Of a DNA stretch of 64,000 nt, positions 1,282 to 63,700 are shown in pieces. The translations under genes were made by a program, and so were the position numbers. Positions within the stretch are counted from its first letter, which is position 1, and every line of letters starts with the position of its first letter. Source of the stretch: Cepaea nemoralis (Eukaryota > Mollusca > Gastropoda > Stylommatophora > Helicidae); the NCBI GenBank assembly GCA_014155875.1, contig JACEFZ010004172.1, forward strand, positions 384,001-448,000. The letters run 5' to 3'. The notes beneath the pieces were generated by a model. It ran no database searches and had not been told where the DNA came from. It saw only the letters and a list, made by a program, of their open reading frames with translations.

Positions 1282-2445
1282 TTACAGTGTCACTGTTTCT
1301 GGTGATCTCTGGTCGATCTCTTCCTGCAAATCAGGTATTTCAATGGTTGACGGTCGACTCAAAGTGTCTGCCAAAGAGTTCAATCTTCCCTTTAAATGCT
1401 GGATGGTAAATGCATAGTTCTGCAGAATCAAAGCCCACCTGTAGACTCTGTTATTCTGGGGAATGCCAGACTGCATCACAGACAATGGAGAATTGTCGGT
1501 TTCGATCACAAACTGTGCTCCTGCCAAAAATCTATGAAATTTCTTAACACAATAGATTAAGCTGAGGCCCTCCAATTCTGATGCTGAGTATCTGGATTCA
1601 GCAGGGCTAATTTTCCGACTTACGTACATTACTGGGTGGAACTTCCCTTCGTAGAACTGTCCTAGTATCCCAGATATGGAGATAGCACTCGCATCTGTAC
1701 GTAAAAAATAGGTAAGGTTTTGATTAGGCAAACGCAGGATAGGTGGAACGCTAAATAGATATTTCAATTTTGATAACGCGCTAATTAATCCTGCATCTTG
1801 TACAGATAATTTAGCTGAAGCTTTTAAGATGTTAAAAAAAACACTGGTGATTTCCGCCAGATTTGGAATAAATTTACTATAGTAATTTACAAGACCTAGT
1901 AAACTTCGGACCTGTTTCTTGGTCGTTGGCATTGTCAAATTCAGAATCTTGGTCACGATTCTGTCATCTGTTCTTAATTGGCCCCTGCAGATGGTATGAC
2001 CTAGGAAGTCAATCTGTTCCATGTCCAACTCTACTTTGGTAGGCTTGACTGTAAGCCCAAATACTCGCAACCTGTCGAAGACTTGTCGTAGTTTCAGTAG
2101 GTGTGATGTCCAGTCTTCCGTATGAATACATATGTCATCTATATATGTAGAAATATTGGTCATCCCATGGAGAAGATCCCTAGTTAGACGGACGAAAGTT
2201 GCTGGAGCGTTGCGAAGGCCAAAAGGAAGAAAGCGCCACTCATATAGACCTAAAGGAGTGGAGAAAGCTGTTAAAGGAATAGAATTTAATTGCATCGGGA
2301 CCTGCCAATAACCTTTCGTGAGGTCAAGCTTGCTAAATATGCGAGATGTAGACATGTCCAAGATCAAATCCTCGCATGCTGGGATTGGTTCAGCATCAAT
2401 TTTGGTTATTTTGTTTAACCGTCGATAATCGACGCAGAGTCGATA
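1282..2445 (-). pseudogene. Gypsy reverse transcriptase core and RNase H
   Basis: The frame open from about 2440 (first Met at 2367) down to the stop at 1282 holds the gypsy RT palm and tether. Motif A reads FSKLDLTKGYWQVPM near residues 11-25. The template-grip segment FGLRNAPATF follows, the catalytic YIDD box is near residue 76, and FLGHTI follows. The RNase H begins with the metal-binding FLRTDAS and ends with ADTLSRP. In the intact family this polymerase copies the element RNA into cDNA and RNase H removes the template. The first RT motifs (GIIQKS..YPFPIVLVAKKG) sit in the other frame upstream, so a single frameshift near 2420-2450 breaks the polyprotein. The catalytic residues are intact but the gene is not. 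Confidence 0.9.
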
Positions 2446-3985
2446 GTTGAGCCCTTTTTGGCGACAAGGACGATAGGGAAAGGATACTCTGACTGAGATT
2501 TCTGAATAATTCCACTCGACTCGAGAGATAGTAATTCTTTGTCGAGATTCGACCTATAGTTTAGAGGGATAGAATAAGGTCGACACTTTATTGGAGTGTT
2601 GTCAGTCAGAATAATAGAATGTTCTATTCTGTCTGTCTTTCCTGGGATGTCGGAGAAAATGTCTCTGTATTCCGTCACTAACTCTATCATCTGTCGTCGT
2701 TGATCGTCTGTAAGTTTGGTTTCTATCTTTATGCTGTCAATGGTCGCAGTCGTGTCTATAGTATGGACTGGTAATTCCATCTCGTCTTCGTCTGTCTCGT
2801 TCAATACTGTTGTGGTACTAGCTGCGTGTGCTGTTACCTGGCTAAGTGTGTTTGCGATGTCGCTGTCGTGTGTCGCCCTACCTAGTGTAGTTGTGTTGTG
2901 TACGTCTGTCGTCCGATTACTTTGTGTTGGTGCATCTTGTTCGTCTGTCTGTTGCTCTTGTCGTGAAAAGTATGGTTTCAGCATGTTGATATGAAATATC
3001 TTTAATTTTCCTTTTATCGATATTTCATAATCGACATCTGATATTTTACGTTCAACGTTGAATGGCCCTTGCCAAGATGTTAGTAACAAATTACGTTTAT
3101 CAGGTAGTAGAAGCAAAACCTTCTGATTTGGTTCAAGGTGTATAGTTTTAGCACGCTTATTTGCATAGTCGCGGTACATCTGTCCTTTCCTCTCCAAAGA
3201 TGTCTTGGCTATTACACACGCTTTCATTGTTCTATCGCGTGTCTCCGTTACCATCTCATACGGTGTTACTGCTGTTGGTTTGTCTGGTAAGCTAGTAATT
3301 AGCTGATAGTAAATGGTTAGGGGTCCTCGAGGGTTCGCCCCATAAACTAACTCAAAAGGTGAGAAACCCGTACTCGAGTGCGGAATTTCTCTATGGGCAA
3401 ATAGCACTGCTGGCAATAGTGTGTCCCAATCAGATGGGTTCTCCGCTGTTACTTTAGCCAGCATGTGTTTGAGATCCCCGTTAATTTTCTCTATGATCAC
3501 GTTGCTCATTGGGTGGTACGGGGTACAGAAATGCTGCTCTATTCCTAACAATTTTGTTAAGGCTTGCGTAGCAGCCGAAATAAACTGCGTTCCCCGATCT
3601 GATAAAATAGATCCTGGGAAGCCAAAACGAGAAAATAGGTGCAAAAATACATTTGCCACATTTTTGGAGGTGATGTATTTCAGTGGAATAGCTTCGATCC
3701 ACCTGGTGCATAGATCCACGAGAGTAAGTATAAATCGGTTTCCTTTGCTTGACACCTGATTTAGGGGTCCAACAATATCGACCGCTACACACTCAAATGG
3801 TCTAGATGCTAATAATGACCGTTGAACTTCGGCCGTCACATGCTTTCCCTTTCGTACAAGATGTTGACAAATAGTACATGAACGACAGAAAAATTTTATG
3901 TCAGTACAGAATTTAGGCCAGTAGAAGTGTGACAAAATTCTGGCTAGCGTTTTGTCATAGGCCAAATGTCCAGCAAACGGTGGAC
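2415..3985 (-). pseudogene. Gypsy integrase with linker into RT N-terminus
   Basis: A 516-residue frame (Met at 3965, coding sense extending to about 3985) begins with the H2C2 zinc finger (GHLAYDKTL...CRSCTIC). The DDE core follows: D in VAVDIVGPL, D in LSDRGTQF, and E in VIIEKINGDLK. The C-terminal GPF/Y module (SWQGPFNVERK) is next, then HINMLKPYF. An acidic threonine-rich linker of about 90 residues runs straight into RT N-terminal sequence. That linkage of IN to RT in one frame is the direct evidence for IN-before-RT order. It also argues against two tandem elements, because no LTR or gag lies between them. Upstream sequence is gag N-terminus fused by deletion. Confidence 0.9.
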
Positions 3986-4162
3986 CTCTTTCATTTCTTT
4001 TTGATGCTGCCTTTCTAATGCTCTTTCGTCTCTCTCTAGAGCAGCCTTCTTTTCCATTCGAGCTATTTCTTCTTTATACTTTTGATCCGCCCACTTCTCT
4101 AACTTCTCTCCAGTGTGGCCCATTTGTTTACCTGCCTGGATACAATCACTTAGTGACGCCAT
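3985..4162 (-). pseudogene. Gag N-terminal remnant of the gypsy element
   Basis: A Met at 4162 starts about 60 residues with a short hydrophobic opening (MASLSDCIQAGKQMG). A highly charged coiled-coil-like stretch rich in Glu, Lys and Arg (EKKAALERDERALERQHQKEMKE) follows. This composition is typical of the N-terminus of gag in mollusc and arthropod gypsy elements. Near 3985 the sequence changes into the integrase finger in another frame, so capsid, nucleocapsid and protease have been deleted. Position just inside the leader and PBS supports gag identity; the assignment rests on placement and composition more than on a conserved motif. Confidence 0.6.
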
Positions 4163-11096: not shown

Positions 11097-13507
11097 TTTG
11101 AGTCAGTTACAATCACAATGTGTGTATGCATCGTGTTCTCCATCCAGCGGAAAGCTGCACTGACCGCCTCCACCTCCATTCTTGAGCTAGATGCTGTGGC
11201 ATCATACGCCAGGCTCTCCTGCACCAAACATCGACCATTAGCTTTTTCTAAGAATCCCCAGGCACTTCTCCTACCTCTCAACACCGACCCATCCGTGTAG
11301 ATAATCACATCACCCGGGCGAGAATTATCCTGAATTAGTTGCTAGATTTCCACTTCCGTGGCCCCTGCTAGCCACTCCCTGCACACACGGCTCAATGTGA
11401 TTATAACTCTGCACAAGTCTAGACTGCTCCGTTGGCACTCTGACCCACTCCTCTCCTCGCCTAATGTTCTCCAAGGGGCACACCTGTCTGATCGTATCCT
11501 CCACCTGCGCCACCCATGATCTCCCTCTTATCAGTCTCTGACCCTTAACTTTGTCCAGCGCCTCATGTAACGGATGATCTGTGTCAGCAGCTACTCTGAA
11601 GTATACCTTAGCCTGCATCACCTTGTGCCTACCAGCAACAGTCAGCAGACCAAGGATGTAACGCATACACACTACTGGGGTATCTCTGGTGCATCCCAGA
11701 ATGACCCGCATAGCTTTGAGACAGTGAGCAGTCCTATTCCATAATCAATCACTGAGAGGATCAAGTGCTGGTATAGTGTGAAGAGCATTCTCTGCTCTGT
11801 GTCCATTGCAGCCATAGTTTTAAGTGCATTGAGTCCCTTTTGAGATCTTGTCACAACCGTCTCCACGTGGTCTTAGAAGGGCAGGCTCCTGTCAAATGTG
11901 ATTCCCAGATACTTCAGTTTGTACTCTCTGTTGACGCTTCTACCATCTATCGTGAGGCTTCGGGCATCATCTCACAATCCTGTTGTCCAGAGAGCACCAC
12001 AAAACAGCCTCCTTTTCCGGGTGGATCACAGCACTCATTTCAGTGCACCAATCAATCACTTTGTCTACTGTCACCTGCAGCTCCTGGGCTGTTTGCTCCC
12101 CATCTCTCCTCTGCCTATATGCAAGAACATCATCTGCAAATGTTAGTATCCTACCAACCCCTGGTGCTTCTAGGTTTGCAATCTTGCTCGTATACACATT
12201 ATACACGTATAATATATATAGTATACACGTTAAAGAGCACCGGTGAGATTGCAGATCCATGTGGCAGTCCCAGGGTTAAAATATGTGGCTCTGAGGTCCA
12301 TGCACGCAGACGAAGAGCATCCTGACGAGAATGCAGGACGGCTGCTATCAAGTTCACCAACTAGGGATTGACCCCGTTCTCCATAAGTGCGGTCATCAAA
12401 ATATCATAGCGAACTCTATTGTACGCATCCTCGAGATCAAGCGCTGCCGCCATCATTTCCTGTCTACTCTGGAACCCCTCATAAACGTCAAAGACAAAAG
12501 TGACTGCATTTGACCAGGTATCTTTTCCTGGCCTATAGGAACGGTCAATAACAACACCTCTTGGAAGAAGCTTCTCCCTTTCCAAAAAAATCATGCAGCT
12601 TAACAGCGACTATCTTCTCTAAAACCTTCCCAAGTGTATTTGAAGGGTGATGATCCTAAAGCCACTGAGCTTTGAATGATCCTTGAATGGTTTTGGGAGA
12701 GGGATGAGATAGCTATGTAACCAATCCTGCGGTACTGATGCTGTCCTAATGCAAGCAGTCGGCCATCTCCTTCAGGTCTGCATCGCTCAAAACCTTCATG
12801 TGGCCATACCTAACACCATTGGGCCCTGGTGCCGTGTCTTTTGCCTTTCTCAAAATATGTTTAACATCTTCAACCGGTATGATGTCTTCATAATGCCTAT
12901 TCTCCATTGTGCCAGATAATTCCTCTCTAACTGCATCCCTGGTATCCGCATCATTATGATTGGTCTGCTATAAAAATATCTAGAGAAACGCCTCCCTTTT
13001 CTTTGTCTGTTGTCACGCGTACACCATCCTCTTTATAAATTGTTTCCACTGTCATAGGCCGATTCTTTCCTTGCATTTGTCTGTGCAGTTTTCAGAATTT
13101 TCGCAGTGTTTTATCACCTCCAATCTCCTTCATAAAACATTCCCATTTTACGTTCTTGGCCTCTGCAGCACATCGCTTGAAATCCTCCACCTTGTCTTTC
13201 TTGTCATTTTCCGCTGTGTCCACTTCCTCTCGTGAGCTTCGGCGTGTCTGTCGCACTTTCCTTAGCTGCTTCACCGCAGCTCTCTTTGCTTTCCAAGCAT
13301 TGTCTATTTCTGATGTCCACCATGGTGGCTGTAATAAAGGAGTTTTAACAGTCCTGTTGCATGCCCCCTGTCTGAGGCGCCCAAGCAGGCTGTCGGTCCA
13401 CTCATTCCGGAAGGTCTTACGTGCTTTCCAAGCCTTAAACTTTCCTGGATTTAGAGATCAGGACTGAGCATGGCATGTGATCACTCCCATGGTCATTCAA
13501 AACAGTC
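11097..13507 (-). pseudogene. LINE-A RT and RNase H N-terminal half
   Basis: Reading minus: the post-endonuclease linker (about 13500-12900, including the frame 13274-13092), then RT. The RT has SYRPGKDTWSNAVTF and motif A AALDLEDAYNRVRYD (12594-12361). Motif C is ILTFADDVLAYRQ (12260-11967), and thumb segments such as LILSVIDYGIGLLTVSK (11866-11672) and VILGCTRDTPVVCMRYI (11711-11325) follow. RNase H begins with IIYTDGSVLRGRRSAWGF and breaks after VTDSK at about 11103 where LINE-B is inserted. At least four frame changes occur. The intact guide is the plus-strand copy at 57179-59482. Confidence 0.8.
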
Positions 13508-13521
13508 CACTTTACATCAAG
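13508..13521. repeat. 14-bp target-site duplication of the Penelope insertion (left)
   Basis: CACTTTACATCAAG here matches CACTTTACACCAAG at 16443-16456 with one difference. LINE-A endonuclease coding sense resumes across the pair. Confidence 0.85.
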
Positions 13522-13618
13522 TAAAGAAACTAAGTTAACCAAACTTCGTGCCTCTATCTCTACCCCTTCCGCCTCTTCTCTCTCGGCTCACCCTACCATC
13601 GTTTCCGACAATTTAGTT

Positions 13619-15109
13619 GTGTGCATACCTCCTGATCTCCCCCTATCAGCACCGGAGAAGCCGGTCCTTAGTAAAGGTCTCCGTTTCATACCTCTGCGTC
13701 CTTCTGGCGACAGATATGCACTACTGCAGGACGTCCTTCGTTTCCATCGCACTCTCAGGTTGCAATATCACTTCAGTAATCAACCTAATAAGGACAACTC
13801 CTCGGATCCCGCCGATCACTTCTCTCACCTTTCTAAACGCAGATCCACTTGGGTCCCCACTGCAGGAGCATCCAAAGCCTTAGATCGCTATATCGAGAAG
13901 ACGCTCTTCGACATAGAACAATTGAAATTCAAGCCACTAAGGCACTCGAACCTTACAGCGGAGGAACAACAGGCGCTCACACATTTGAAACGCTGTGATG
14001 ACATTGTTATCAAGCCTGCCGACAAGGGAGGAGCGTTAGTGGTTTGGAGGAAGGACTTGTATATACAGGATTGCAACAAACAACTTGGGGATGCCACTTT
14101 TTACAGACTACGGGCAGAAGACGGGACGGTCAATAACAACACCGAAGTCAAGAGGGTGACGAATGCCATCATCAGACAAGGCCTCTTGCCTAGCTCTGCC
14201 ACGTCGCTAATCATCCAAGATAGTTGCTTGGGCAAACCCACCTTGTACATGCTGCCTAAGACACACAAGCTAGGGAACCCAGGCAGACCCATCGTCTCGG
14301 CCTGCTCTTGTCCTACTGAACGGATTTCAGAGTTCCTTGACAGCATATTTCAGCCGTTGGTTGCTAGCCTCCCCTCATATATCAAAGACACCAACCACGC
14401 TATCTCCATCTTCGATTCCATCAGCTTCACCACCCCTTCTCAGCACCACATCTTTACTTTAGATGTGACTTCACTCTATACATCTATTCCTCACTCTGAC
14501 GGCCTTAAAGCCTTGGAATTTTTCTTAGACAAAAGACACGGCCCCACCATAGCCACCGGACCATTGCTGCGTCTGGCAGAGTTAGTCCTTAACCTCAATT
14601 CATTTGAGTTCAATGGGGACTATTTTGACCAGATCAGCGGGGTGGCCATGGGCACTAAGATGGGTCCGAGTTATGCCTGTCTGTTCATGGGCTATCTTGA
14701 ACACCAGGTATGGAGTCAATACACTGGTAGGCTCCCGGAGCTCTATAGGAGGTATATCGATGACTGTTTTGGTGTTTCAGACATGCCATTGTCTGATCTC
14801 CAGGACTTCATTGCCTTTTTCTCTAACTTTCATCCTAGCATCAGACTCACCTCCACTATTTCCTCGTCGGCTGTTAATTTCTTAGACATAACAGTTTCCT
14901 TAGGTTCTGCTGGCCTATGCACGACGGTTTACTATAAACCGACTGACTCACATGCATTCCTTCTCTATACCTCCTCCCATCCTCCCTCTTGCAAGGATTC
15001 CATTCCTTTCTCACAACTGTTACGTCTCCGACGGCTTTGTCATGATAATAGACTTCCGTCAAAAAGCCCACGAAATGTTGGATTTCTTCCGCCTTCGAGG
15101 TTACCCTGA
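13619..15109 (+). pseudogene. Penelope-type reverse transcriptase
   Basis: A 496-residue frame holds KPADKGGALVVW near residue 125 and PTLYMLPKTHK with GRPIVSA before residue 210. Motif A is LDVTSLYTSIPH, motif B is GVAMGTKMGPSYACLFMGYLE, and motif C is the catalytic YRRYIDDCFGV near residue 380; FLDITVSL follows. The KTHK and MGT.MGP signatures are specific to Penelope RTs as opposed to LINE or LTR RTs. Near 15046 the coding sense moves into the frame open from 14952 to 15428 (DFRQKAHEMLDFFRLRGYP and on). The upstream start is uncertain because 5' extension in the same frame meets stops in the leader. Confidence 0.9.
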
Positions 15110-15429
15110 GAATGTTCTGTCTACAGCTCTTCACCGCTGCCAGTCTGTTAGTCGTGCCGAGGCTCTCTCTTCCAGGCCGAAACCACGTAATAATAGACCT
15201 ATTCTCTCACTTACCTACCACTCTCATAATATTGCTGCCAAGAATATTCTCATGAGGCATCTACCCATCCTCCAGGCAGACCCGGTCACTCGCGATGTCT
15301 TCTCAGAGGCCCCACTTGTGGCATACAGGCGGGATCGTAACCTGAGGGATGTGCTGGTCCATAGCACTCTATCCCAATCCCACCAGTCTCTTCCTGGCAC
15401 GACTGCATGTCTTCGATCTCGCTTGTAAG

Positions 15430-15813
15430 ACTTGTCCATATGTCCTTCAAACCACAAGTCTGACTTTCCCTAAGACTACTTTCCACATCCGGGAGGGTTT
15501 CTCATGTACGAGTCGCAACGTTATCTATGCGATCATCTGCACACGTTGCGACATGAGGTATCTTGGGAAGACGGGCCTTCGTCTGGCGGACAGATTTAGA
15601 CAACATTTATCCGATATCGACAGTGGTGCCAAGAAACCGGTACCCCTACACTTCAACAGTTCCGACCACTGTGGGGTTGCCGACATACGTGTTACGGCGA
15701 TAAAATCGTGCACATCTCACGAACGCGATCGCAAGACACTGGAAAACCGTCTTATCTTCCAGTTGGGTTCACTTTCCCCTCACGGCCTCAATGTCCAACA
15801 CAGTTTTATTTAA
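15430..15813 (+). pseudogene. GIY-YIG endonuclease domain of the Penelope-like element
   Basis: In the frame 15349-15813 the last 125 residues carry a Cys-containing approach (CKTCPYVL). The GIY-YIG core follows: VIYAIICTRC then MRYLGKTGLRLADRFRQHL, where the usual YVG is YLG. The catalytic-type Arg is in the helix and a C-terminal Glu is in KTLENRLIFQLG. The domain nicks target DNA in canonical Penelope elements. It is out of frame with the RT block, with a frameshift near 15420. The stop is at 15811-15813. Confidence 0.85.
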
Positions 15814-15831
15814 GTCCCCTACGCCCCTTAT

Positions 15832-15844
15832 CCCCCCCCCCCCC
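15832..15844 (+). repeat. C13 homopolymer
   Basis: Thirteen C residues lie 20 bp after the GIY-YIG stop codon. Confidence 0.85.
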
Positions 15845-15871
15845 ATCTCCGCAATTGTATAGTCCACTTCC

Positions 15872-16100
15872 AAGCCAATTGCATGTCCTTCGCAGGACGT
15901 GGTAGTCAACACCAGCATTATCTCTGCTTTCTGTGACTTCCTGGTTGGTTTGCGTGGGATCACTTCTCATTGCGTTCTGAACAACCGTCACTTGTGCTAC
16001 TTTTTGATAGCAAACGCTTGTTGGTCTGCATCCATATTGCCCACAGCAGCGTTTCGAACTTGGCGTACGGAATTGCGAACTGCATCCGTTACATCACCCC
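15872..16100 (-). repeat. SINE-like repeat family S, copy in Penelope 3' region
   Basis: On the minus strand this matches the family also seen at 19287-19519 (minus), 53905-54090 (plus) and, for the 3' part only, 54355-54480 (plus). Shared landmarks are GATGCAGTTCG near the 5' end, TTCAGAA..CAATG in the middle, and a 3' end with AATGCTGGTGTTGACT then TCCTGCGAAGGACATGCAA. It lies between the GIY-YIG stop and the Penelope 3' boundary. I could not see clear target-site duplications here. Confidence 0.55.
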
Positions 16101-16442
16101 AGAGTTACACATCCATATTTTTCCATTCGCTTCTCTTGGGCGCACCCCGATCCCCCCAGCGCCGGTTCCCTCACCGGTTGACTTAACCAATCACCGAGTT
16201 TCTGGCTGTACTGACCTTTAGTCAGTTGACCCCGTTAACGGTCCACCCATGGATACCAGTTCCAGCTAGGACACAGATAAGTTATTTGTACATTCATGTA
16301 GTGTCGATCGTGTATTTGTTAGTCTATTTTTGTTTGTTTGTTCTGTGCTGACGAAGGCTTTGGCCGCAACGTCCATTGTTTTTTGTAGTTGTGCTTTGGT
16401 AAAGCTCTCAACCTACTTCTCGTTTTTCAGTGATTCATTCAT

Positions 16443-16456
16443 CACTTTACACCAAG
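16443..16456. repeat. 14-bp target-site duplication of the Penelope insertion (right)
   Basis: CACTTTACACCAAG pairs with 13508-13521. Confidence 0.85.
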
Positions 16457-17940: not shown

Positions 17941-17946
17941 TTCATA

Positions 17947-17956
17947 ATAGTATCAC
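17947..17956. repeat. Target-site duplication of the retrozyme (left)
   Basis: ATAGTATCAC is repeated exactly at 18511-18520, directly after the second copy of the retrozyme repeat. Confidence 0.9.
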
Positions 17957-17981
17957 TGATCCGGGACTGTTTCCGGATCCG

Positions 17982-18049
17982 GTCAGGGATATGCACTACT
18001 GACGAGCTCAAACGAGGGCGAAACTCGAGTATAGTGCTTCCATATTGAC
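17982..18049 (+). ncRNA. Type I hammerhead ribozyme, copy 1
   Basis: Stem I pairs GCACTA (17993-17998) with TAGTGC (18032-18037). Beyond an internal loop it also pairs GTCA (17982-17985) with TGAC (18046-18049). Core CTGACGA is at 17999-18005. Stem II pairs GCTC (18006-18009) with GGGC (18016-18019) around a six-base loop, with one G-U pair. GAAA is at 18020-18023. Stem III is very short: AC pairs with GT around TCGA, or the palindrome ACTCGAGT pairs between two molecules. Cleavage is expected after the GTA triplet at 18031. Every invariant core base is present. Confidence 0.9.
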
Positions 18050-18372
18050 GTGGATAGGCCTTAGGTTCATACCAGAATGCGATCGGCGTTGCCAGTAGTG
18101 GGTTGTGCTCAATATTTAAATTTCAAATCCCGAAACGACCACATAATCAATTTATTATTGCTCACTGGATTTAGGAGGCCTGGTGTTCCTTGCCAGTGAG
18201 AAGTCCTGATCGTTCGGGTCCCATCGATTGACGGACGTCGGTCGCGGCGATTGGGCAATCTTGAGCATAGCCTACGATGGGTAGCGTTGTGATGTTCTGC
18301 TGTGATAATTTGGTGTGTCCAGTGTGTGCCGCGTGGTTACACACCCGCGATCCGGGACTGTTTCCGGATCCG

Positions 18373-18440
18373 GTCAGGGATATGCACTACTGACGAGCTC
18401 AAACGAGGGCGAAACTCGAGTATAGTGCTTCCATATTGAC
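18373..18440 (+). ncRNA. Type I hammerhead ribozyme, copy 2
   Basis: Identical to copy 1, offset by 391 bp. Stem I 5' strand is at 18384-18389, core CTGACGA at 18390-18396, and cleavage is expected after A18422. Two same-strand hammerheads allow excision and ligation of the monomer between them. Confidence 0.9.
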
Positions 18441-18510
18441 GTGGATAGGCCTTAGGTTCATACCAGAATGCGATCGGCGTTGCCAGTAGTGGGTTGTGCT
18501 CAATATTTAA

Positions 18511-18520
18511 ATAGTATCAC
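18511..18520. repeat. Target-site duplication of the retrozyme (right)
   Basis: ATAGTATCAC, an exact match to 17947-17956. Confidence 0.9.
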
Positions 18521-18813
18521 AGCCTGGGATTCTGAAATAAGTAGCAGAATATTTTTTTTCAAATTTTAATTTTCTCTTCATAATTCTCATTTTTTCCTTT
18601 CAAAAAAATTCTTTTCACCCTGTTTATGCCTTAATTTAAGTCACTGGAGGGTCTTCTCCGTAATTATATATTGTGTTTTGGGTATGTATTTGTTTGCTGA
18701 TGAAGGCTAGTCCTTGTATTGTTCGTAATTCTGTTCTGTAAAGCTGCATTACTTTGTGTTATTTTTATACTGTTTACATTTCCACAGCTTTACCGCAGTT
18801 CCATTAATTTTAT
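18521..18813 (+). other. Spacer, possible Penelope 3'-end relic
   Basis: AT-rich sequence. GCTGATGAAGGCT near 18698 followed by TGTAAAGC resembles GCTGACGAAGGCT...GGTAAAGC in the 3' region of the Penelope element (about 16347-16405). The similarity is short, so the relation is only suggestive. Confidence 0.25.
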
Positions 18814-19880
18814 TCATAGGATAACACCACTGGTGAGCATTCCGTGCCTTTTGTTTTGGATCGACCAACGAAGCTTCGTCAATGTTTCACAATAAAATTC
18901 TGATGTTATTGTGGTCCCTAGTGTCATGAATTCCATCAAAAAAGTGCCCTTGCGGTCCCAGAACACTGCAACCATCATTTTTCTTTGCGAAAATGTTTGC
19001 TTGAATTTGTTGAGCTTGCTTGGAGAATGATTATGCACCCACTGTTCTGAATATCCCTTCGTCTCTGTATTCATGAAGTGAATACCCATGTCTCGTCCTC
19101 AGTCTGTTGATAAATGACCCCCCCCCCCCCTCCCCCCGAAAGGAACGACAAAACTGAGCCCATTATTTGAGCTTTGTTAACTTCAGTCAGCTGCTTTGGT
19201 GGTACCCACCGTGAACAGAATTGGTGGTAATCTAATCTCTCTGTGACAATACAAAACAGACTAGTCATAGGAATTTGTGGAAATTCTGTAGTTAGTTGCT
19301 TGTCCTTTACAGGACATAGCAGTAAACCTCAGCATTTTTTGACTGTTCGTGATTCCTGAGCAAGTTTACATTCAACAGTTTGCCATTCCTTTCTGAACGA
19401 CCGAATCCCATACCATTTCATAAACAACCAACGTAAGGCAGTCTTCTGCCAAATCGCCTACAGCTGAGTTTCGTACGCAGATATGTGGGATTACGAACTG
19501 CGCCCATAACCTCTTCGCCACAGAGAAAGATCTGAAATTGTGAAACAGCGCTTTCCCACTACGAATTGGTCTACTTTTTGAATGGCTCATCTGTCACACA
19601 TGAATGTCATCCAAATCCACTCTCATCATGCACATCTTAACGCCCATCTTTGAATTCCCTGCACCAACAGAACTGTCACACATGTTATCACCATAAATAT
19701 GACACAACTGACGATGAATCTTGGCCGTATTTTCCCCTTCTGCTTGAAGAAAACGAATCACACCATGAATTTCCCAGCTGGTGGGAAAGACAATAACAGT
19801 GTCCATGTTTATTCGTTTGAAATTCGTGAACCACTGAACAAATACGACTATAGGTTTATGTGTAGTGAGGTAAAAAAAAA
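18814..19880 (-). mobile_element. mariner transposon remnant interrupted by a SINE-like repeat
   Basis: The minus-strand transposase is read in three blocks. The N-terminal helix-turn-helix is at about 19860-19590 (SWEIHGVIRFLQAEGENTAK). The linker (FTISDLSL) runs to about 19520. The DD34D core is at 19286-18828 (FPQIPMTSLFCIVTERLDYH, DETWV, then FMNTETKGYSEQW and VAVFWDRKGTFLMEF). The sequence ends after GMLTSGVIL, before the second Asp region, so the 3' third is gone. Repeat family S splits it between the linker and FPQ. A C13 run at 19118-19130 also disrupts it. Mariner transposases cut and paste at TA sites; this one cannot. Confidence 0.85.
19287..19519 (-). repeat. SINE-like repeat family S inserted in mariner
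   Basis: About 233 bp lies between mariner residues DLSL and EFPQ. On the minus strand it starts TGGCGAAGAGG, contains GCAGTTCGTAATCCC (a possible relic of a pol III B box) and ends TCCTGTAAAGGACAAGCAA. The interruption of a known coding sequence defines its limits and shows it is a mobile unit. It is related to 15872-16100, 53905-54090 and 54355-54480. Confidence 0.7.
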
Positions 19881-20055
19881 ACGACTGAATGATGAAAGCA
19901 GTGAACGGCGTCGCTATGGCAACTGGTTTATTTTTACCAGCCAATTGGCGATTGATTTTGGAATAGCTCTTGTATATATGATGACAAATGCTAACATACA
20001 AAGTAAGGAGTAAGATAAGAATGTGTTTTGTTACCAGATCGTTCGTCCCTCTATA

Positions 20056-20060
<5 letters not shown>

Positions 20061-20145
<85 letters not shown>
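20061..20145. repeat. (GA)n microsatellite ending in G11
   Basis: About 75 bp of uninterrupted GA dinucleotides followed by eleven G. The serine/leucine frame across it is spurious. Confidence 0.95.
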
Positions 20146-25282: not shown

Positions 25283-25430
25283 CCCCTCTGCTGTGTGTCC
25301 ACCGTGACGAGGTAGAGGGGCTTGTGCGTCCCAATGACCCCAAGAGCTATGCCGACGGTAGCACAGCTACTGGTAGGGCCACCCATGTCGGACAGGTCAA
25401 GGGAGAGGGACCAGACGAAGAGACACACAA

Positions 25431-25666
25431 ACCTGCTGCCTTGTAGGTAGACTGGGGACAGTCAAAGGCTAGGGAAAGCACCCCAAATACATGCTTGTCG
25501 AAATCGGATGTACTGAGCCACAGGCTTGACAAAGCAGTGCAACGTGAAACCTGCTGCCTTGTAGGTAGACTGGGGACAGTCAAAGGCTAGGGAAAGCATC
25601 CCGAATAAATACTTGTCGAAATCGGATGTACTGAGCCACAGGCTTGACAAAGCAGTGCAACGTAAC
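25431..25666 (+). repeat. Two 118-bp tandem monomers in LINE-D 5'UTR
   Basis: Unit 1 is 25431-25548 and unit 2 is 25549-25666. They are almost identical, each beginning ACCTGCTGCCTTGTAGG and ending AAGCAGTGCAACGT. They lie immediately before the endonuclease Met at 25674, the position where tandem promoter monomers occur in some LINEs. Confidence 0.9.
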
Positions 25667-26942: not shown

Positions 26943-29525
26943 GGACCTAGAAACAAACAAATAACAATTAAACAAGGAAATGCCTTGCTTACAGGCAAAA
27001 AGGCTGCAAATGCACTAATGGAACACTATGCAAATGCAAACCACATTGATATTACAACCGAACAGAAGAAAGCAATCAAAGACAAACAGACACATCATAG
27101 AAATACAGAGACAGCAGCAGAATATATGATGGCAAATCTAACAATGGAAGAAATGGAACAGGCAATGAATACCCTAAAAAAGAAGAAATCACCAGGAAAG
27201 GATGGAATCACAAATGAAATGCTAATAGGACTAGGCACCAAGGCAAAGAAGAAACTACTAGCAGTCCTAAATAACAGCTGGAAGAGAGGAATAGTCCCAC
27301 AGGCATGGAAGGAAGCTATACTAATACCAGTCCCAAAGAAAGGAAAAGACCTGCAAGAACCAAATGGCTATCGACCTATCAGTCTACCTAGCTGTGTAGG
27401 AAAATTAATGGAACGCATTATCAATGGCAGGCTAACATGGCATCTGGAAGAAAACAAACTCTTAACACCACACCAAGCAGGATTCAGAAAATACAGATCC
27501 ACTGAAGATCAAATAACCTATATAGCTTAGGAAATAGAGGAAGCCTTCCAAGAGAAAAAGCACACACTAGCAGTCTGGATAGATTTAGAAAAAGCATTTG
27601 ATAAAGTATGGAAGGAAGGACTGAAAGTAAAACTGCAAAACATGCATGTTTGTGGACAAATGTATAAATGGATCAGCCACTACCTTGAGAACAGAACTGC
27701 CAGGACAAAAGTACAAGGACAAACAAGCAAAATGATGCTGCTGGAGCAAGGTGTCCCCCAAGGAGGAGTTCTTTCACCAACATTATTCCTAGCATATATA
27801 AATGACATCACAGAAAATTTTCCAGCCAGAGTACACACATCCTCCTTTGCAGATGACCTAGCCATATGGACATCTGAAGAATATATTAGTACAGCTAACA
27901 GCAGAATACAGCAAGCCTTATTAGCACTAGAGGACTGGTCAAAATCATGGCTAGTGAAGATAAGTGAGGAGAAAACAACATGCACAGTGTTCTCCCTCTC
28001 AAATAAAACTCAGCAACCTAAGCTGGTATTGAATGGAAAAATATTGCGCCATGAAGAAAATCCAAACTATCTAGGAGTCACCTTTGATCGTCGCCTGACA
28101 TGGAAGACACAGGTTGAGAAAAATCGAACAAGAGCAAGGCAGAGAATGGCAATCATGAAAAAGCTTGCTGGTACAACGTGGGGAGCAGATGAGAAAGTTC
28201 TCAAGAAGTTATATACTGGACGGGTGAGGCCAGTACTGGAATATGGCATTGCAGCTTGGGCAACAGCAGCTAAGTCAAACTTTAACAAAATAAGTAGAGT
28301 CCAAAACCAAGGAATGCGAATCATAACTGGAAGCCTGAAGACAACGCCTATTAATGAACTAGAAAAGATCACTTGTTTACAACCAATGCAGGATAGAAGA
28401 GATAGCAGAGCCCAGCAACAAGCAGAAAAATTTAGAAGATTGACAGACCACCCTATGTACAACAGATTTAATGGTTTTGGAAAGGGAAGACTGAAGCGTA
28501 GCAACTTTGTAGAAACTGCAAAACGAAGGATTAGGGCAGATCCTATATTTAACATATCAACAGTCAAGCCCATACACAATGCACACAAGTTCCCAGATTG
28601 GAGACAGCAGCAACTGCCTGAGATGATAGAAAACATTCCTGGTATTGAGAAAAAGAACACTCAGCATGAAACCGAAAGAAGAGAAATAACCCTAAACTAC
28701 ATAAAAGAACATTACCCAAGCAGGAATTGGACCCATGCATATACAGATGGATCAGCCAAAAATTCAATAGAGAATGGAGGAGGAGGAATTCTCCTAAATT
28801 TAAAAAATGGAGTGAAAAAAACACATTCAATGGCAACTGGAAAATTTTCAAGTAACTTCAAAGCGGAGGTAGAGGCTTTGAAAACTGCAGCAGAAATGCT
28901 CCTGATGGAGGAAAATAAAGAGAAGCAAATAGCTATCTTCACAGATGCAAAGTCAGCTGTCTCAATACTCAAGAGCAATAACAGCACAGAACTAACTGAC
29001 CTAAGAGCAGCACTCCATGGTCTATGCCAGAAATCCAAAAAAGTTGTAATACAGTGGATCCCATCACATTGCAGTATACCTGGAAACGAAGAGGCTGACA
29101 GACTGGCAAAAGAGGGCGGACGACTACCACAGCCTGACATAGACATAACCTATAATGAGGCAAAGAGGTTGATAAAAAGCACTTATAGAACCAAATGGGA
29201 ATCTGAGCATCCAGGCCATCAGAAGGATGATGCATATTACAAACTCGACCGAAGAGAACAAGTAGCAATCTTCAGACTCCGCACAGGACATAACAGGCTG
29301 AAATACCACTTGTTCAATAAACTAAAGATAGGAGATACTAATGAATGTAATTGTAGAACTGGAAAAATGACAGCAAAACATTTGCTGCAGGATTGCCCAA
29401 CGTATGCAGAACAGAGAAAGATATTTTGGCCCACACCTGCTTCATTTGAGGACAAGCTCTATGGAGATATCAACAAGCTCAAGTTGACCGCAGCTTACTT
29501 TAACTACATACAGGTTGACATTTAA
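26889..29525 (+). pseudogene. LINE-D reverse transcriptase and RNase H
   Basis: One frame from 26889 to 29525 is broken only by TAG at 27528-27530. RT shows SPGKDGITNEML, PNGYRPISLPSCVGK, motif A WIDLEKAFDKVW and motif B QGVPQGGVLSPTLFLAYIND. The catalytic box is SSFADDLAIW, followed by NYLGVTFDRRLTW. RNase H follows: AYTDGSAKNS, a Glu in FKAEVEAL, IFTDAKSAV and IPSHCSIPGNEEADRLA. A C-terminal Cys motif reads CNCRTGKMTAKHLLQDC, the zinc-binding tail of this LINE group. It overlaps the end of the endonuclease frame, consistent with one original ORF2 broken by a frameshift. Confidence 0.93.
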
Positions 29526-29560
29526 AGGTGCATGAAGACCCAGAGGCATGAAATGAAATA

Positions 29561-29830
29561 TTGCTTGGATAGCAAATCCATTATGTGGAAAGTCCAAATC
29601 GAAAGCTCGCTGTGTGGGCTTCATAAAAGGTGGAAAAGTGTCCTAGTGGCACGAAATGGAATATTGCTTGATAGCAAATCCATTACGTGGAAAGTCCGAA
29701 TCAAAAGCCCATTGTGTGGGCTTCATAAAAGGTGGAAAAGTGTCCTAGTGGCATGAAATGGAATATTGCTTGGATAGCAAATCCATTACGTGGAAAGTCC
29801 GAATCGAAAGCTCACTGTGTGGATGTCATC
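29561..29830 (+). repeat. ~102-bp tandem repeats in LINE-D 3'UTR
   Basis: TTGCTTGG(A)TAGCAAATCC recurs at 29561, 29664 and 29766, giving about 2.6 units of 102-103 bp. The minus-strand LINE-D copy shows the same arrangement at about 61228-61520, so the array predates both copies. Confidence 0.9.
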
Positions 29831-33443: not shown

Positions 33444-35034
33444 TCAGCTCAGTGTTCCTGTCTCATCCAAGCCATCCAGGTATTTTCCTCTCGGTCTTCC
33501 TCTAGGTCTGTTCCCTTCGATCTTGCCAGTTATTAATAAGTTCTCCAATCCATTTCTTCTCATAACATGTCCAACAATTTTTGACTGTCTACGTCTACTT
33601 TCTCTAATCAATTTACGATTTTCATTTGTCTCCTGTAGTACTTGGTCATTGGTTTTTCTGTCTGTCCAGGGTATTCTTTGCATTTTCCTCAGAAACCACA
33701 TTTCTGCAGCCATCAGATGTTTTTCAGCTTGACTGCTCATTGTCCAAGTGTCACATTCATACAAAAGAACAGGCTCTATGCATCCCCTCAACACTCTTTA
33801 TCTCATTTCAATTGACTTCTCATTGGTGAGAATGTTTTTCATCTTGCTAAAGGCTACTTTCGCCATGGGGATTCTTGTTCTAATCTCTTCAAGGCATCTC
33901 CCATCAGATGTTATGACTGTTCCAAGATAATTGTAACGATTTACTTGTTGAAGAATATTCCCATTTACTTGTATATTACATTGTGGTACTTCGTTCTTCC
34001 TAGTGATGACCATAACCTGTGTCTTTTTACAATTTAATTCTAACCCCAGTTGCTCACTGTATACAGCAACCGCATCTACTAATTGTTGCAGATACTGTGC
34101 ATTGTCTGCAATCAATACTGTATCATCTGCATTTCTAATGTTATTGATGTTTCGTCCTCCAATGCTGATTCCATTTATATCCTCTACATTTCTGAAAATA
34201 TTTTCACTGTATAGGGAAAGAGGATCTGGAGATATTACATATCTCTGCCTAACACCTCTCTTAATAGGTTGATATTGTCCCACTTCATTATCAATCCTTA
34301 TGGCAGCTCTTTGTTTCCAATATATGTTTTTATAAGTCTAATGTGTAGATGTGCAAGCATATTCACCATTTTGACATGTCGAACTCTATCAAAAGCCTTT
34401 GTGTAGTCAATAAAGCAAAGATGTATATCCTTGTTTACTTCTATAGCACGTTTAATAACTGTTTGCAGCATATACACAGCATTTACTGTACCCTTTCCTT
34501 CTACAAACACACATTGTTCTTCCCCTATTTCCGGTTGTATTTTCTTCCTCACTCTTTGCATGATAATTCATAGCAAAATCTTTGTGATGTGACTCATTAT
34601 ACTAATTGTTCTATGTTGATCACATTCCAAGGCTCCTGATTTCTTTGGGATTGCAATAAATACAGAGTTACATAATTCAGAAGGTATATCTCCAGTATCA
34701 TATAATGTGTTCAGCAGTCTGGTGACTTGCTCTAGTCCAAATTCTTCTAAAGCTTTAATCATTTCTGTTGTGATGTTATCTGAACCGGGGCCTTGCCAGC
34801 TTTCATATGCTTAAGAACATTTCGAACCTCCATCTTCAAAATTGGTGGTCCTTCATTATTAAATCTAATATCATATTGTTCTTCTCTGTTATCATCATAA
34901 AGGTATTTCACATAATCTGCCCATACATGTAGAATCTGATCTGTTTCTATTATGATTTTGCCATCTTTAGTTTTTAGACAGCCTGTTGATGTACTTGTTC
35001 TTTTATTAGTAAGTTCCTGAATTCGTTTGTGCAC
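33444..35034 (-). pseudogene. LINE-C reverse transcriptase and C-terminal domain
   Basis: RT pieces run 35034-34759, 34762-34568 (IPKKSGALECDQHRTISIM), 34561-34298 (motif A CFIDYTKAFDRVRH) and 34283-33798. The last has motif B RQRYVISPDPLSLY with the usual G of RQG changed to R, and motif C is NADDTVLIADN where YADD is expected. The C-terminal domain (33794-33444) has LLYECDTWTM, FLRKMQRIPWTDRK, GHVMRRNGLENLL and a GNRPRGRPRGKYLDGL tail. The changes in motifs B and C plus frame changes mean no active enzyme. Confidence 0.85.
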
Positions 35035-37330: not shown

Positions 37331-38407
<1,077 letters not shown>

Positions 38408-53904: not shown

Positions 53905-54090
53905 ATGGCAAAGAATTCACGGATGCAGTTCGTAATCCCGCACCACATGTTCGGAACACAGCTGCGAGTGATTTGGCAGCAGCCAGCCTTGCCTTGGTTT
54001 TTTACGAAATGGTATGGGTGTTGGCCGTTCAGAAAGCAATGGCAAACTACTGAACGTAAACTTGCCAAGAGATCATAACAGCAAAAAAAA
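53905..54090 (+). repeat. SINE-like repeat family S, plus-strand copy
   Basis: It contains GATGCAGTTCGTAATCCCGC, GATTTGGCAG, ACGAAATGGTATGGG and GGCAAACTACTGAACGTAAA, and ends in A-rich ATGCTTTT. These match the complement of 19287-19519 along its length. A short inverted piece of the same family's 3' end (GTCAACACCAGCATT) lies just before it at 53870-53884. Confidence 0.7.
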
Positions 54091-54354
54091 AAAAATGCTT
54101 TTAAGAAGAAAAAAAAAAAAACTAAAAAAACAGTAAAACAGCCGAATATGATAACTGTCTGTGTAGCTACCTTATCTGAATCTATTGTTAGAGAGGTATC
54201 TTTTCGCCTCGCCACACCCCCACATTAGAATACCTACCTACATAACTGATGTCGACATGGTCGAAAGGATAAGAATACTTGCTCTTTAACCTCCACTTAG
54301 CTGATGGTGAGGAAGGCATTTCAACCCCTACGCTGGCTTTAAGTTGGACTTAAA

Positions 54355-54480
54355 CATAGACTTCTTGTTCAGAAATCAATGGCAAACTACTGAACGTAAA
54401 ATTGCCTAGTAAATCAACCTGGGATTGATTACAATGTCCTGCAAAGGACATGCAACATTTTAACCAACATAACACTTATA
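54355..54480 (+). repeat. Repeat family S, 3' part
   Basis: ATGGCAAACTACTGAACG through TGTCCTGCAAAGGACATGCA matches the last half of family S. It is preceded by a segment (54290-54355, TTCAACCCCTACGCTGG) similar to 55970-56035. Confidence 0.65.
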
Positions 54481-60774: not shown

Positions 60775-63700
60775 CTGCGTTCATCCGGAGTTTTTTTTTT
60801 CCGGACGTGATTGTGTTGTGCCTGTTTACAGCAGAGCTGCGTCCTTGCGCCGTTAGGTTGGCACATCCGACTTCTGCAGGCATTTCTTGACCGGGTTAAC
60901 CTTCCCGGGGGTTTCGTAAGACGTTTGACTCTCACTGTTGTGGTGTTATTCCCCCATCCCAGCTAGCCCATTTAGAACAGCCGAAGACATAACGGTCAGC
61001 CCTCAAGGTAAGGCAGGGACAGACCATGGGCATTCCCCGCCATCCAAGGAGGCTTCCATAATTGCAGGGCTGACACATAGCGATGTGGTACTGGGCTCAC
61101 TCAAGGAATCGTCACATCCTGCACATGGCTGCTTAACCTCACTTCCGTATATTGGGACTTCCGTTAATCATAGGCTGCTCCTTCAGAAACCAGAAGAATG
61201 CAGTCTGCAGATAACATTCACACTGTGAGCTTTCGATTCAGACTTTCCACATAATGGATTTCTATCCAAGCAATATTCCATTTCATGCCACTGGGACACT
61301 TTTTCCACCTATGATGACGCCTACATAGTGAGCTTTCGATTCAGACTTTCCGTGTAATGGATTTGCTATCCAAGCAATATTCCATTTCTTGCTATTGGGA
61401 CGCTTTTTCCATCTTTGATGATGCCCACACAATGAGCTTTTGATTTGGACTTTCCACGTAATGGATTTGCTAGCCAAGCAATATTCCATTTCATGCCTTT
61501 GGGATACTTTTGTTACCGACATACCTGTGGTATGAAGTGTGGCAGTCTAATTACTTCTTCATGCACCTTTAGATGTAAATCTGAATGAAGTTAAAGTAAG
61601 CTGCGGTCAACTTGAGCTTGTTGATATCTCCATAGAGCTTGTCCTCAAATGAAGTAAGTGTGGGCCAAAATATTTTTCTGTTCTGCATATATTGGGCACT
61701 CCTGCAGCAAATGTTTAGCTGTCATTTTACCAGTTCCATAATTACATTTCAGCCTGCTATGTCCTGTGCGGAGTCTGAAGATTGCTACTTGTTCTCTTCG
61801 GTCGAGTTTGTAATATGCATCATCTTTCTGGTGGCCTGGATGCTCTGATTCCCATTTGGTTCTGTAAGTGCTTTTTATAAACCTCTTTGCTATTATAAGT
61901 AATGTCTATGTCAGGCTGAGGTAGTCATCTACCCTCTTTTGAGAGTCTGTGAGCCTCTTCATTTCCAGGTATACTGCAATGACCACTGTATTACAACTTT
62001 TTTGGATTTCTGACATAGTCCATAGAGAGCTGCTCTTAGGTCCACTAGTTCTGTGCTGTTTTTGCTCTTTAGTATTGAGACAGCTGACTTTGCATCTGCG
62101 AAGATAGCTATTTGCTTCTCTTTATTTTCCTCCACCAAGAGCATTTCTGCTGCAGTTTTCAAAGCTTCTACCTCTGCTTTGAAGTTACTTGAAAATTTTC
62201 CAGATGCCACTGACTTTTTCACTCCATTTTTTAAATTTAGGAGAATTCCTCCATTTAATTTTTGGCTGATCCGTCTGTATATGCATGGGTCCAATTGCTA
62301 CTTGGCTAATGTTCTTTTATGTAGATTAGATCGATTTTTCTTCTTTCTGTTTCACTCTGAGTGCTCTTTTTCTCAATACCAGGAATGTTTTCTATCATCT
62401 CAGGCAGTTACTGCTGTCTCCAAGCTGGGAACCTGTGTGCATTGTAAATGGGTTTGACTGTTGATATGTTAAGTATGGGATCTGCCCTAATCTTTTGTTT
62501 TGCAGTTTCTATAAAGTTGCTACGCTTCAGTCTTCCCTTTCCAAAACCATTAAACCTGTTTTTTTTGTTAAAGTTTGACTTAGCTGCTGTTGCCCAAGCT
62601 GCAATGCCATATTCCAGTACTGGCCTCACACGTCCAGTATATAAATTTTTGAGAACTTTCTCATCTGCTCCCCATGTTGTACCAGCAAGCTTTTTCATGA
62701 TTGCCATTCTTTGCCTTGCTCTTGTTCGATTTTTCTCAACCTGTGTCTTTCATGGCAGGCAACGATCAAAGGTGACTCCTAGATAGTTTGGATTTTCTTC
62801 ATGGCGCAATATTTTTGCATTCAATACCAGCTTAGGTTACTGAGTTTTATTTGAGAGGGAGAACACTGCGCATGTTGTTTTCTCCTCACTTATCTTCACT
62901 AGCCATGATTTTGACCAGTACTCTAGCGCTAATAAGGCTTGCTGTATTCTGCTGTTAGCTGTACTAATATATTCTTCAGATGTCCATATGGCTAGGTCAT
63001 CTGCAAAGGAGTATGTGTATACTCTGGCTGGAAAATTTTCCGTGATGTCATTTATATATGCTAGGAATAATGTTGGTGAAAGAACTCCTCCTTGGGGGAC
63101 ACCTTGCTCCAACAGCATCAGTTTGCTGGTTTGTCCTTGTACTTTTGTCCTGGCAATTCTGTTCTCAAGGTAGTGGCTGATCCATTTGTACATTTTCCCA
63201 CAAACATGCATTTTTTGCAGTTTTACTTTCAGTCCTTCCTTACATACCTTATCAAATGCGTTTTCTAAATCTACCCAGACCGCTAGTGTGTGCTTTTTCT
63301 CTTGGAAGGCGTCCTCTATTTCCTGAGCTATATAGGTTGTTTGATCTTCAGTGGATCTGTACTTTCTGAATCCTGCTTAGTGTGGTGTTAAGAGTTGATT
63401 TTCTTCCAGATGCCATGTTAGCCTGCCACTGATGTGTTCCATTAATTTTCCTACACAGCTAAGTAGACTGATAGGTCGATAGCCGTTTGGTTCTTCCAGG
63501 TCTTTTCCTTTCTTTGGGACTGGTATTTGTATAGCTTCCTTCCATGCCTGTGGGACTATTCATCTCTTCCAGCTGTAATTTAGGACTGCTAGTAGTTTCT
63601 TTTTTGCCTTAGTGCCTAGTCCTATTAGCATTTCATTTGTGATTCCATCCTTTCCTGGTGATTTCTTCTTTTTTATGGTATTCATTGCTGGTTCCAATTC

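Follow-up and report, generated by a model that had tools for sequence, protein, structure and literature searches.

A probable animal retrozyme with tandem type I hammerheads in Cepaea nemoralis

We analyzed a 64,000-nucleotide stretch of Cepaea nemoralis DNA (the window) and found at 17958-18512 a 555-bp insertion (1.42 units, 50.1% GC) that is very probably a recent insertion of a non-autonomous animal (non-LTR) retrozyme. Its life cycle would comprise dimer cleavage, a circle, and probably the reverse transcriptase of a Penelope-like element. The original prediction of an animal retrozyme is well supported by the anatomy, namely, tandem type I hammerheads, a 391-nt unit, no coding capacity, a circle predicted to be self-paired, and a target-site duplication of 8 to 11 bp. 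We further propose, tentatively, that this retrozyme counts its copies: the hammerhead would be on only when one RNA carries two units that the rod-like body draws together, so that precursors are cut and the one-unit circle is protected.

Structure and ends of the insertion

The terminal repeats are 164 bp each, identical at 164/164 positions, with starts 391 bp apart (Table 1). Identity and spacing were as first described, while the length had been given as 162 bp. With 0 differences in 164 positions, repeat divergence is at most 1.8% (95% upper bound). Barring gene conversion, the alternative explanation for the identity, this makes the insertion young. Repeat identity and the exact flank duplication together support the recent mobility that had been proposed.

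An 11-bp string, AATAGTATCAC, is common to both flanks and occurs at only these two places in the window on either strand. Its first three bases, AAT (18510-18512), also close the second repeat, which leaves a length of 8 to 11 bp for the duplication. What had been called a perfect 10-bp duplication is exact, but its length is not certainly 10. The three bases common to the 3' end and the target are what would be expected if the target primes reverse transcription. The second repeat is preceded by a C where the first is preceded by a T (17957), and this T is possibly an untemplated base. At its 5' end, the insertion coincides with the foot of a 9-bp hairpin. The first cleavage point (18031) lies 74 nt in from this end, and another 90 nt follow the second (18422). 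Since the repeat ends lie off the cleavage sites, the inserted copy would derive from an uncut transcript or from a circle read for more than one round.

The endlessly repeated unit has a longest stop-free run of 48 codons (plus strand) or 75 codons (minus strand) and is non-coding. By eye, there is no PBS next to the repeats, where the body starts with TTCAAATCCC and not with TGG, and no polypurine tract, the ACACACCCGC before the second repeat not being purine-rich. Within the 64-kb window, neither a tRNA nor a further copy of the retrozyme was found.

Table 1. Features of the insertion and of the neighboring Penelope-like element, in window positions
Feature	Position	Strand	Basis or remark
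Penelope-like element	about 13468-16454	+	RVT_1 E 1.4e-7, GIY-YIG E 3e-5
Left target-site duplication copy, AATAGTATCAC	17946-17956	+	Exact string search, both strands
Extra T between flank and element	17957-17957	+	Direct reading; matches neither side
First terminal repeat, 164 bp	17958-18121	+	100% identical to 18349-18512
Hairpin GATCCGGGA-CTGT-TTCCGGATC	17958-17979	+	9 pairs in predicted folds
Hammerhead copy 1, type I	17993-18037	+	RF00163 and descriptor; predicted cleavage after 18031
Putative 391-nt RNA unit, presumably released and then circularized	18032-18422	+	Cleavage sites 391 apart; circular fold
Unique body, 227 bp	18122-18348	+	With the remainder of the unit, the rod-like part of the predicted circle
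Second terminal repeat, 164 bp	18349-18512	+	100% identical to the first
Hammerhead copy 2, type I	18384-18428	+	RF00163 and descriptor; predicted cleavage after 18422
Right target-site duplication copy	18510-18520	+	Exact string search; first 3 bases within the end of the second repeat

Hammerhead motifs and their predicted folding

Both hammerheads match the Rfam family Hammerhead_1 (RF00163) end to end with 33.1 bits (E 2.2e-4 each). This is 0.9 bit below the gathering score of 34, and at that threshold the window gives 0 matches. Using our own descriptor, which required the core, ≥4 bp in stem I, ≥2 bp in stem II, a closed stem III, and UH, we recovered exactly these two hammerheads from both strands of the window and 0 from five mononucleotide shuffles (one strand each). 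Direct reading confirmed the cores CTGACGA and GAAA, stem I GCACTA/TAGTGC, and stem II GCTC/GGGC that had been reported, along with the GTA triplets at 18029-18031 and 18420-18422. Stem I (6 bp) contains an internal loop and, distally, a GTCA/TGAC helix; stem II has 4 bp.

In the sequence GAAACTCGAGTA, helix III consists of a lone C-G pair, together with the core pair A15.1-U16.1, and is capped by a palindromic UCGA loop. The earlier description of two intact hammerhead ribozymes is thus right for the cores, but a helix III of one C-G pair is probably too weak alone, and for this reason a single hammerhead is predicted to perform poorly. A single 45-nt hammerhead gave an energy of -7.2 with helix III and -8.3 without it, compared to -11.5 for the best fold, in which core bases are paired. 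When two 45-nt hammerheads were cofolded, the minimum (-30.9) was exactly the double hammerhead. These models predict that a lone hammerhead misfolds and that two copies form a double hammerhead. A self-cleaving 391-nt RNA from this locus, as originally proposed, is plausible, and a one-repeat transcript could stay uncut although the element is functional. As described for the axolotl hammerhead HHR_Amex1, which has a one-pair helix III and a palindromic loop, single copies cut poorly and two-copy transcripts cut well (PMC7229834). A stable helix III is reported for most invertebrate hammerheads in the account of PMC7761336.

In the minimum-energy fold of the 555-nt transcript (-210.4), the two helix III segments pair with each other over 8 bp (inter-copy helix III), the end of copy 1 pairs with the start of copy 2 as the inner stem I, and both stems II are present. 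Imposing the full double hammerhead on this transcript raises the energy by 4.2 kcal/mol, and imposing two single hammerheads raises it by 10.9. Pairing probabilities were 0.69 to 0.85 for the inner stem I, 0.71 to 0.77 for the inter-copy helix III, and 0.0 for the outer stem I; with 60-nt genomic flanks, they were 0.79 to 0.98, 0.78 to 0.85, and 0.0, respectively. In the transcript, a copy's own helix III has a probability of 0.0, and the first three bases of core 1 are mostly paired. When only the body was shuffled, the probability of the inner stem I fell from 0.95 to 0.36 on average, and 1 of 30 shuffles attained the level of the real sequence. The inter-copy helix III was 0.69 in the real sequence versus a mean of 0.68, with 18 of 30 shuffles reaching it. 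Stem I is thus sensitive to body shuffling and helix III is not, which implies that the body favors the approach of the copies at stem I. The inter-copy pairing of helix III would follow from the palindrome itself and not from the body.

The predicted ground state places the core of copy 2 to cut after 18031 and leaves 18422 without service. As modeled, this fold speaks against the unit being released simply through cleavage at both sites. Cutting should be better in a two-copy precursor than in a one-copy circle.

The 391-nt circle had a minimum energy of -147.1 kcal/mol versus a mean of -120.2 (standard deviation, 5.6) for 200 dinucleotide shuffles (z -4.8), none of which (0/200) reached the real value. 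Paired bases made up 70% of the real circle versus 66% in the shuffles, and the circle of the complementary (minus) strand reached only -105.8. Within the circle, stem I has a probability of 0.55 to 1.0 and the circle's own helix III one of 0.0. Published animal retrozyme circles are described as showing a high degree of self-pairing that leaves the ribozyme stem able to form (PMC7229834; PMC4918200), and the fold predicted here fits that description. All of these folds are of secondary structure only, ignoring tertiary contacts, magnesium, and co-transcriptional order.

Proposed life cycle, candidate helper, and competing readings

In the cycle that we propose, read-through transcription would yield a transcript that carries two hammerheads. 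Self-pairing of the body would draw the copies together, and the palindromic helix III segments (ACUCGAGU) would pair with each other. The core of copy 2 would cut the site of copy 1 (after 18031), and a cut after 18422 would then require refolding or another partner. A host ligase would close the 391-nt RNA to a circle. Having a single hammerhead whose helix III is one pair, this circle would cut itself poorly and hence last. A reverse transcriptase, most likely that of a Penelope-like element, would copy the RNA and insert the copy. Copy counting, if true, would answer for this element how the circle escapes its own ribozyme, which is an open question for animal retrozymes (PMC7229834). Dimer dependence would provide a simple reason for circle stability and would extend a weak helix III like that of newts to a mollusc. 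With its readable ends, this clean and apparently young copy suits a test of the Penelope-like helper and of the insertion route, i.e., uncut RNA versus more than one trip round the circle.

A Penelope-like element ends 1.5 kb upstream of the retrozyme on the same strand (Table 1). Compared to three relatives of 892 to 907 amino acids, it is without the first 130 to 150 residues and is spread over three frames with two frame changes; we regard it as a dead copy. It is nested in a minus-strand LINE, and the 8-bp AGGACTGA flanks it at 13460 and at 16455, with a third occurrence at 27617. Its frame has 10 named relatives among the 120 matches listed, of which 4 are gastropod (Physella, Biomphalaria, and Littorina twice). 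These are the most similar of the named matches listed, with 53 to 58% identity, and the others come from newt, crinoid, sea anemone, coral, and shark. By eye, the letters at 16348-16373 of the element contain what we take to be a likeness of a minimal hammerhead, with GCAA for GAAA. Rfam gave 0 matches at 16348-16373 at E up to 10, the descriptor gave none, and a motif search at up to 3 mismatches found 2 motifs versus 1.01 expected by chance. A hammerhead in this neighbor is a lead only. Similar letters at 18697 gave no hammerhead match.

About 120 bp past the retrozyme, 18631-18797 resembles the 3' end of the upstream Penelope-like element (score of 226 versus a maximum of 184 in 50 mononucleotide shuffles), and another Penelope-like element probably has its 3' end here. 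The regions 19400-20060 and, on the 5' side, 13400-13700 yielded no further stretch of this kind. Outside the hammerhead-like letters, the retrozyme and the Penelope-like element showed no similarity, the best match being a 14-mer. Because no sequence ties the two together, a Penelope-like helper at this locus is a guess by neighborhood and analogy. In the published account, Penelope-like elements are the authors' strongest helper candidate and occur in species with retrozymes (PMC7229834). The retrozyme and Penelope-like remains lie side by side here, as in the species of that account (PMC7229834).

The window is rich in retrotransposon remains. All named relatives are gastropod for the LINEs at 27531-29522 (11/11) and 33798-34337 (15/15; best Bradybaena, 66%), most relatives of either being without an organism name. 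Together with the Penelope-like frame, these named relatives make a gastropod host likely, with the caveat that transposons may pass between species. On the minus strand at 1282-4073, Ty3-like pol remains carry the integrase 5' of RT-RNase H, whereas Ty3 elements usually have these domains the other way round; the remains presumably recall the Gmr1 group. Tandem repeats of 102 to 104 bp lie past the reading-frame end at 29545-29822 and 61219-61511, in two LINE copies of opposite orientation that look like one family, and a 118-bp duplication (25429-25663) precedes the first LINE frame. One repeat is common to 15879-16095 (after the GIY-YIG frame), 19296-19513 (past the retrozyme; 63% over 220 positions), and 53919-54455 (minus strand). 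Uninterrupted GA arrays occupy 37757-37952 (98 units) and 20060-20135 (38 units).

The insertion can be read in other ways. It is possible, though we would not expect it, that it is a small non-autonomous Penelope-like derivative whose repeats are pseudo-LTRs and whose uncut RNA was inserted via internal initiation, with circles as by-products or absent altogether. The plan of Penelope-like elements is likewise partial-tandem with a hammerhead in each pseudo-LTR (PMC11167929), but the insertion has no sequence in common with the upstream Penelope-like copy. Ends 74 nt before and 90 nt after the cleavage sites do not fit the insertion of a linear cut monomer, and uncut RNA is described as the main in vitro template in one active Penelope-like element (PMC11167929); yet 1.42 units are equally expected from a reverse transcriptase circling more than once, as proposed in PMC7229834. 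The distance from the cleavage site to the end is similar in the two elements, i.e., 90 nt in the retrozyme and 81 nt in the upstream Penelope-like copy (if the hammerhead-like letters count), although two end distances are no statistic.

It is rather unlikely, in our judgment, that the element is the same but each hammerhead cuts alone, with loop-loop contacts rescuing helix III. In many invertebrate hammerheads, loop II contacts the internal loop of stem I, and the internal loop and distal GTCA/TGAC helix of stem I are the usual site for such interactions. The Rfam match also runs end to end, its sub-gathering score being the sole mark against it, and the mussel hammerhead, which lacks most of the archetypal contacts, is described as cutting slowly, at ~0.1 per min (PMC7229834). 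The energies of the 45-nt hammerhead nevertheless favor the core-paired fold over the hammerhead with or without helix III, and neither the transcript nor the circle gives a copy's own helix III a probability above 0.0, in tools that leave tertiary contacts unscored. A satellite unit that carries hammerheads by chance and was duplicated in tandem, dead now or inactive from the start, would suit the presence of only 1.42 copies and of no known promoter found, but it is highly improbable given the exact flank duplication at both ends, the identical repeats, the intact cores, and a fold energy beyond 200/200 shuffles.

Other candidates were rejected. A plant-type LTR retrozyme or TRIM is ruled out by the type I hammerhead, the 8- to 11-bp duplication, and no PBS or PPT by eye. 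For a Pol III SINE, there is no A box at up to 2 mismatches, and the five B-box-like sites are all at 2 mismatches. A viroid or delta-like agent is made unlikely by no minus-strand hammerhead, by the minus fold (-105.8 versus -147.1), and by integration with a flank duplication. Pattern scans found 0 relatives in the viral contig collection and 5 prokaryote stretches in the genome contig collection; with chance at ~17 over 257 billion bases (a rough hand estimate), these 5 are at about chance level or fewer.

Relation to known retrozymes and Penelope-like elements

As an animal retrozyme, the insertion belongs with elements that are described as having tandem type I hammerheads, units of about 150 to 450 bp, no coding capacity, no PBS or PPT, and, when present, a target-site duplication of >4 bp (PMC7229834). 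Its GC content (50.1% of 555 bp) is just above the published <50%, a value descriptive rather than defining (PMC7229834). Published units reach about 400 nt (PMC7229834; PMC7761336). Retrozymes of this kind are known from mussels, corals, and salamanders. Among the papers listed by the literature searches, none names a gastropod retrozyme, which is not proof of absence.

The mussel type (Mytilus galloprovincialis, 350 to 390 bp) resembles ours, by description and not by sequence, in its tandem type I hammerheads, near-equal unit size, non-coding nature, predicted self-paired circle with stem I formed, duplication of >4 bp, and mollusc host (PMC7229834). The element found here differs in its gastropod host, one-C-G helix III, only 1.42 units, and 50.1% GC. 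Axolotl and newt retrozymes (HHR_Amex1) share the one-bp helix III and the palindromic tetraloop; however, as described, they are amphibian, have units of 330 to 350 bp in very many copies, and have had dimer cleavage shown (PMC7229834). In our element the loop is UCGA and the dimer is predicted only.

Penelope-like elements with minimal hammerheads were reportedly the subject of work by Cervera and de la Pena in 2014 and Lunse in 2017. With hammerheads in their pseudo-LTRs, these elements are likewise partial-tandem, one hammerhead per terminal repeat, and dimeric cleavage has been proposed for them, according to PMC11167929. They encode RT and GIY-YIG, whereas the retrozyme here encodes nothing and has a 6-bp stem I and a 4-bp stem II. 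Plant LTR retrozymes, as described in PMC4918200, also have two hammerheads in direct terminal repeats and a circular RNA (putative in our case), but they alone have type III hammerheads, LTRs of about 350 bp, a 4-bp duplication, and a PBS and PPT. It is well supported that the present find extends the published retrozyme family (Cervera and de la Pena 2020), the point added being a predicted dimer type with a weak helix III.
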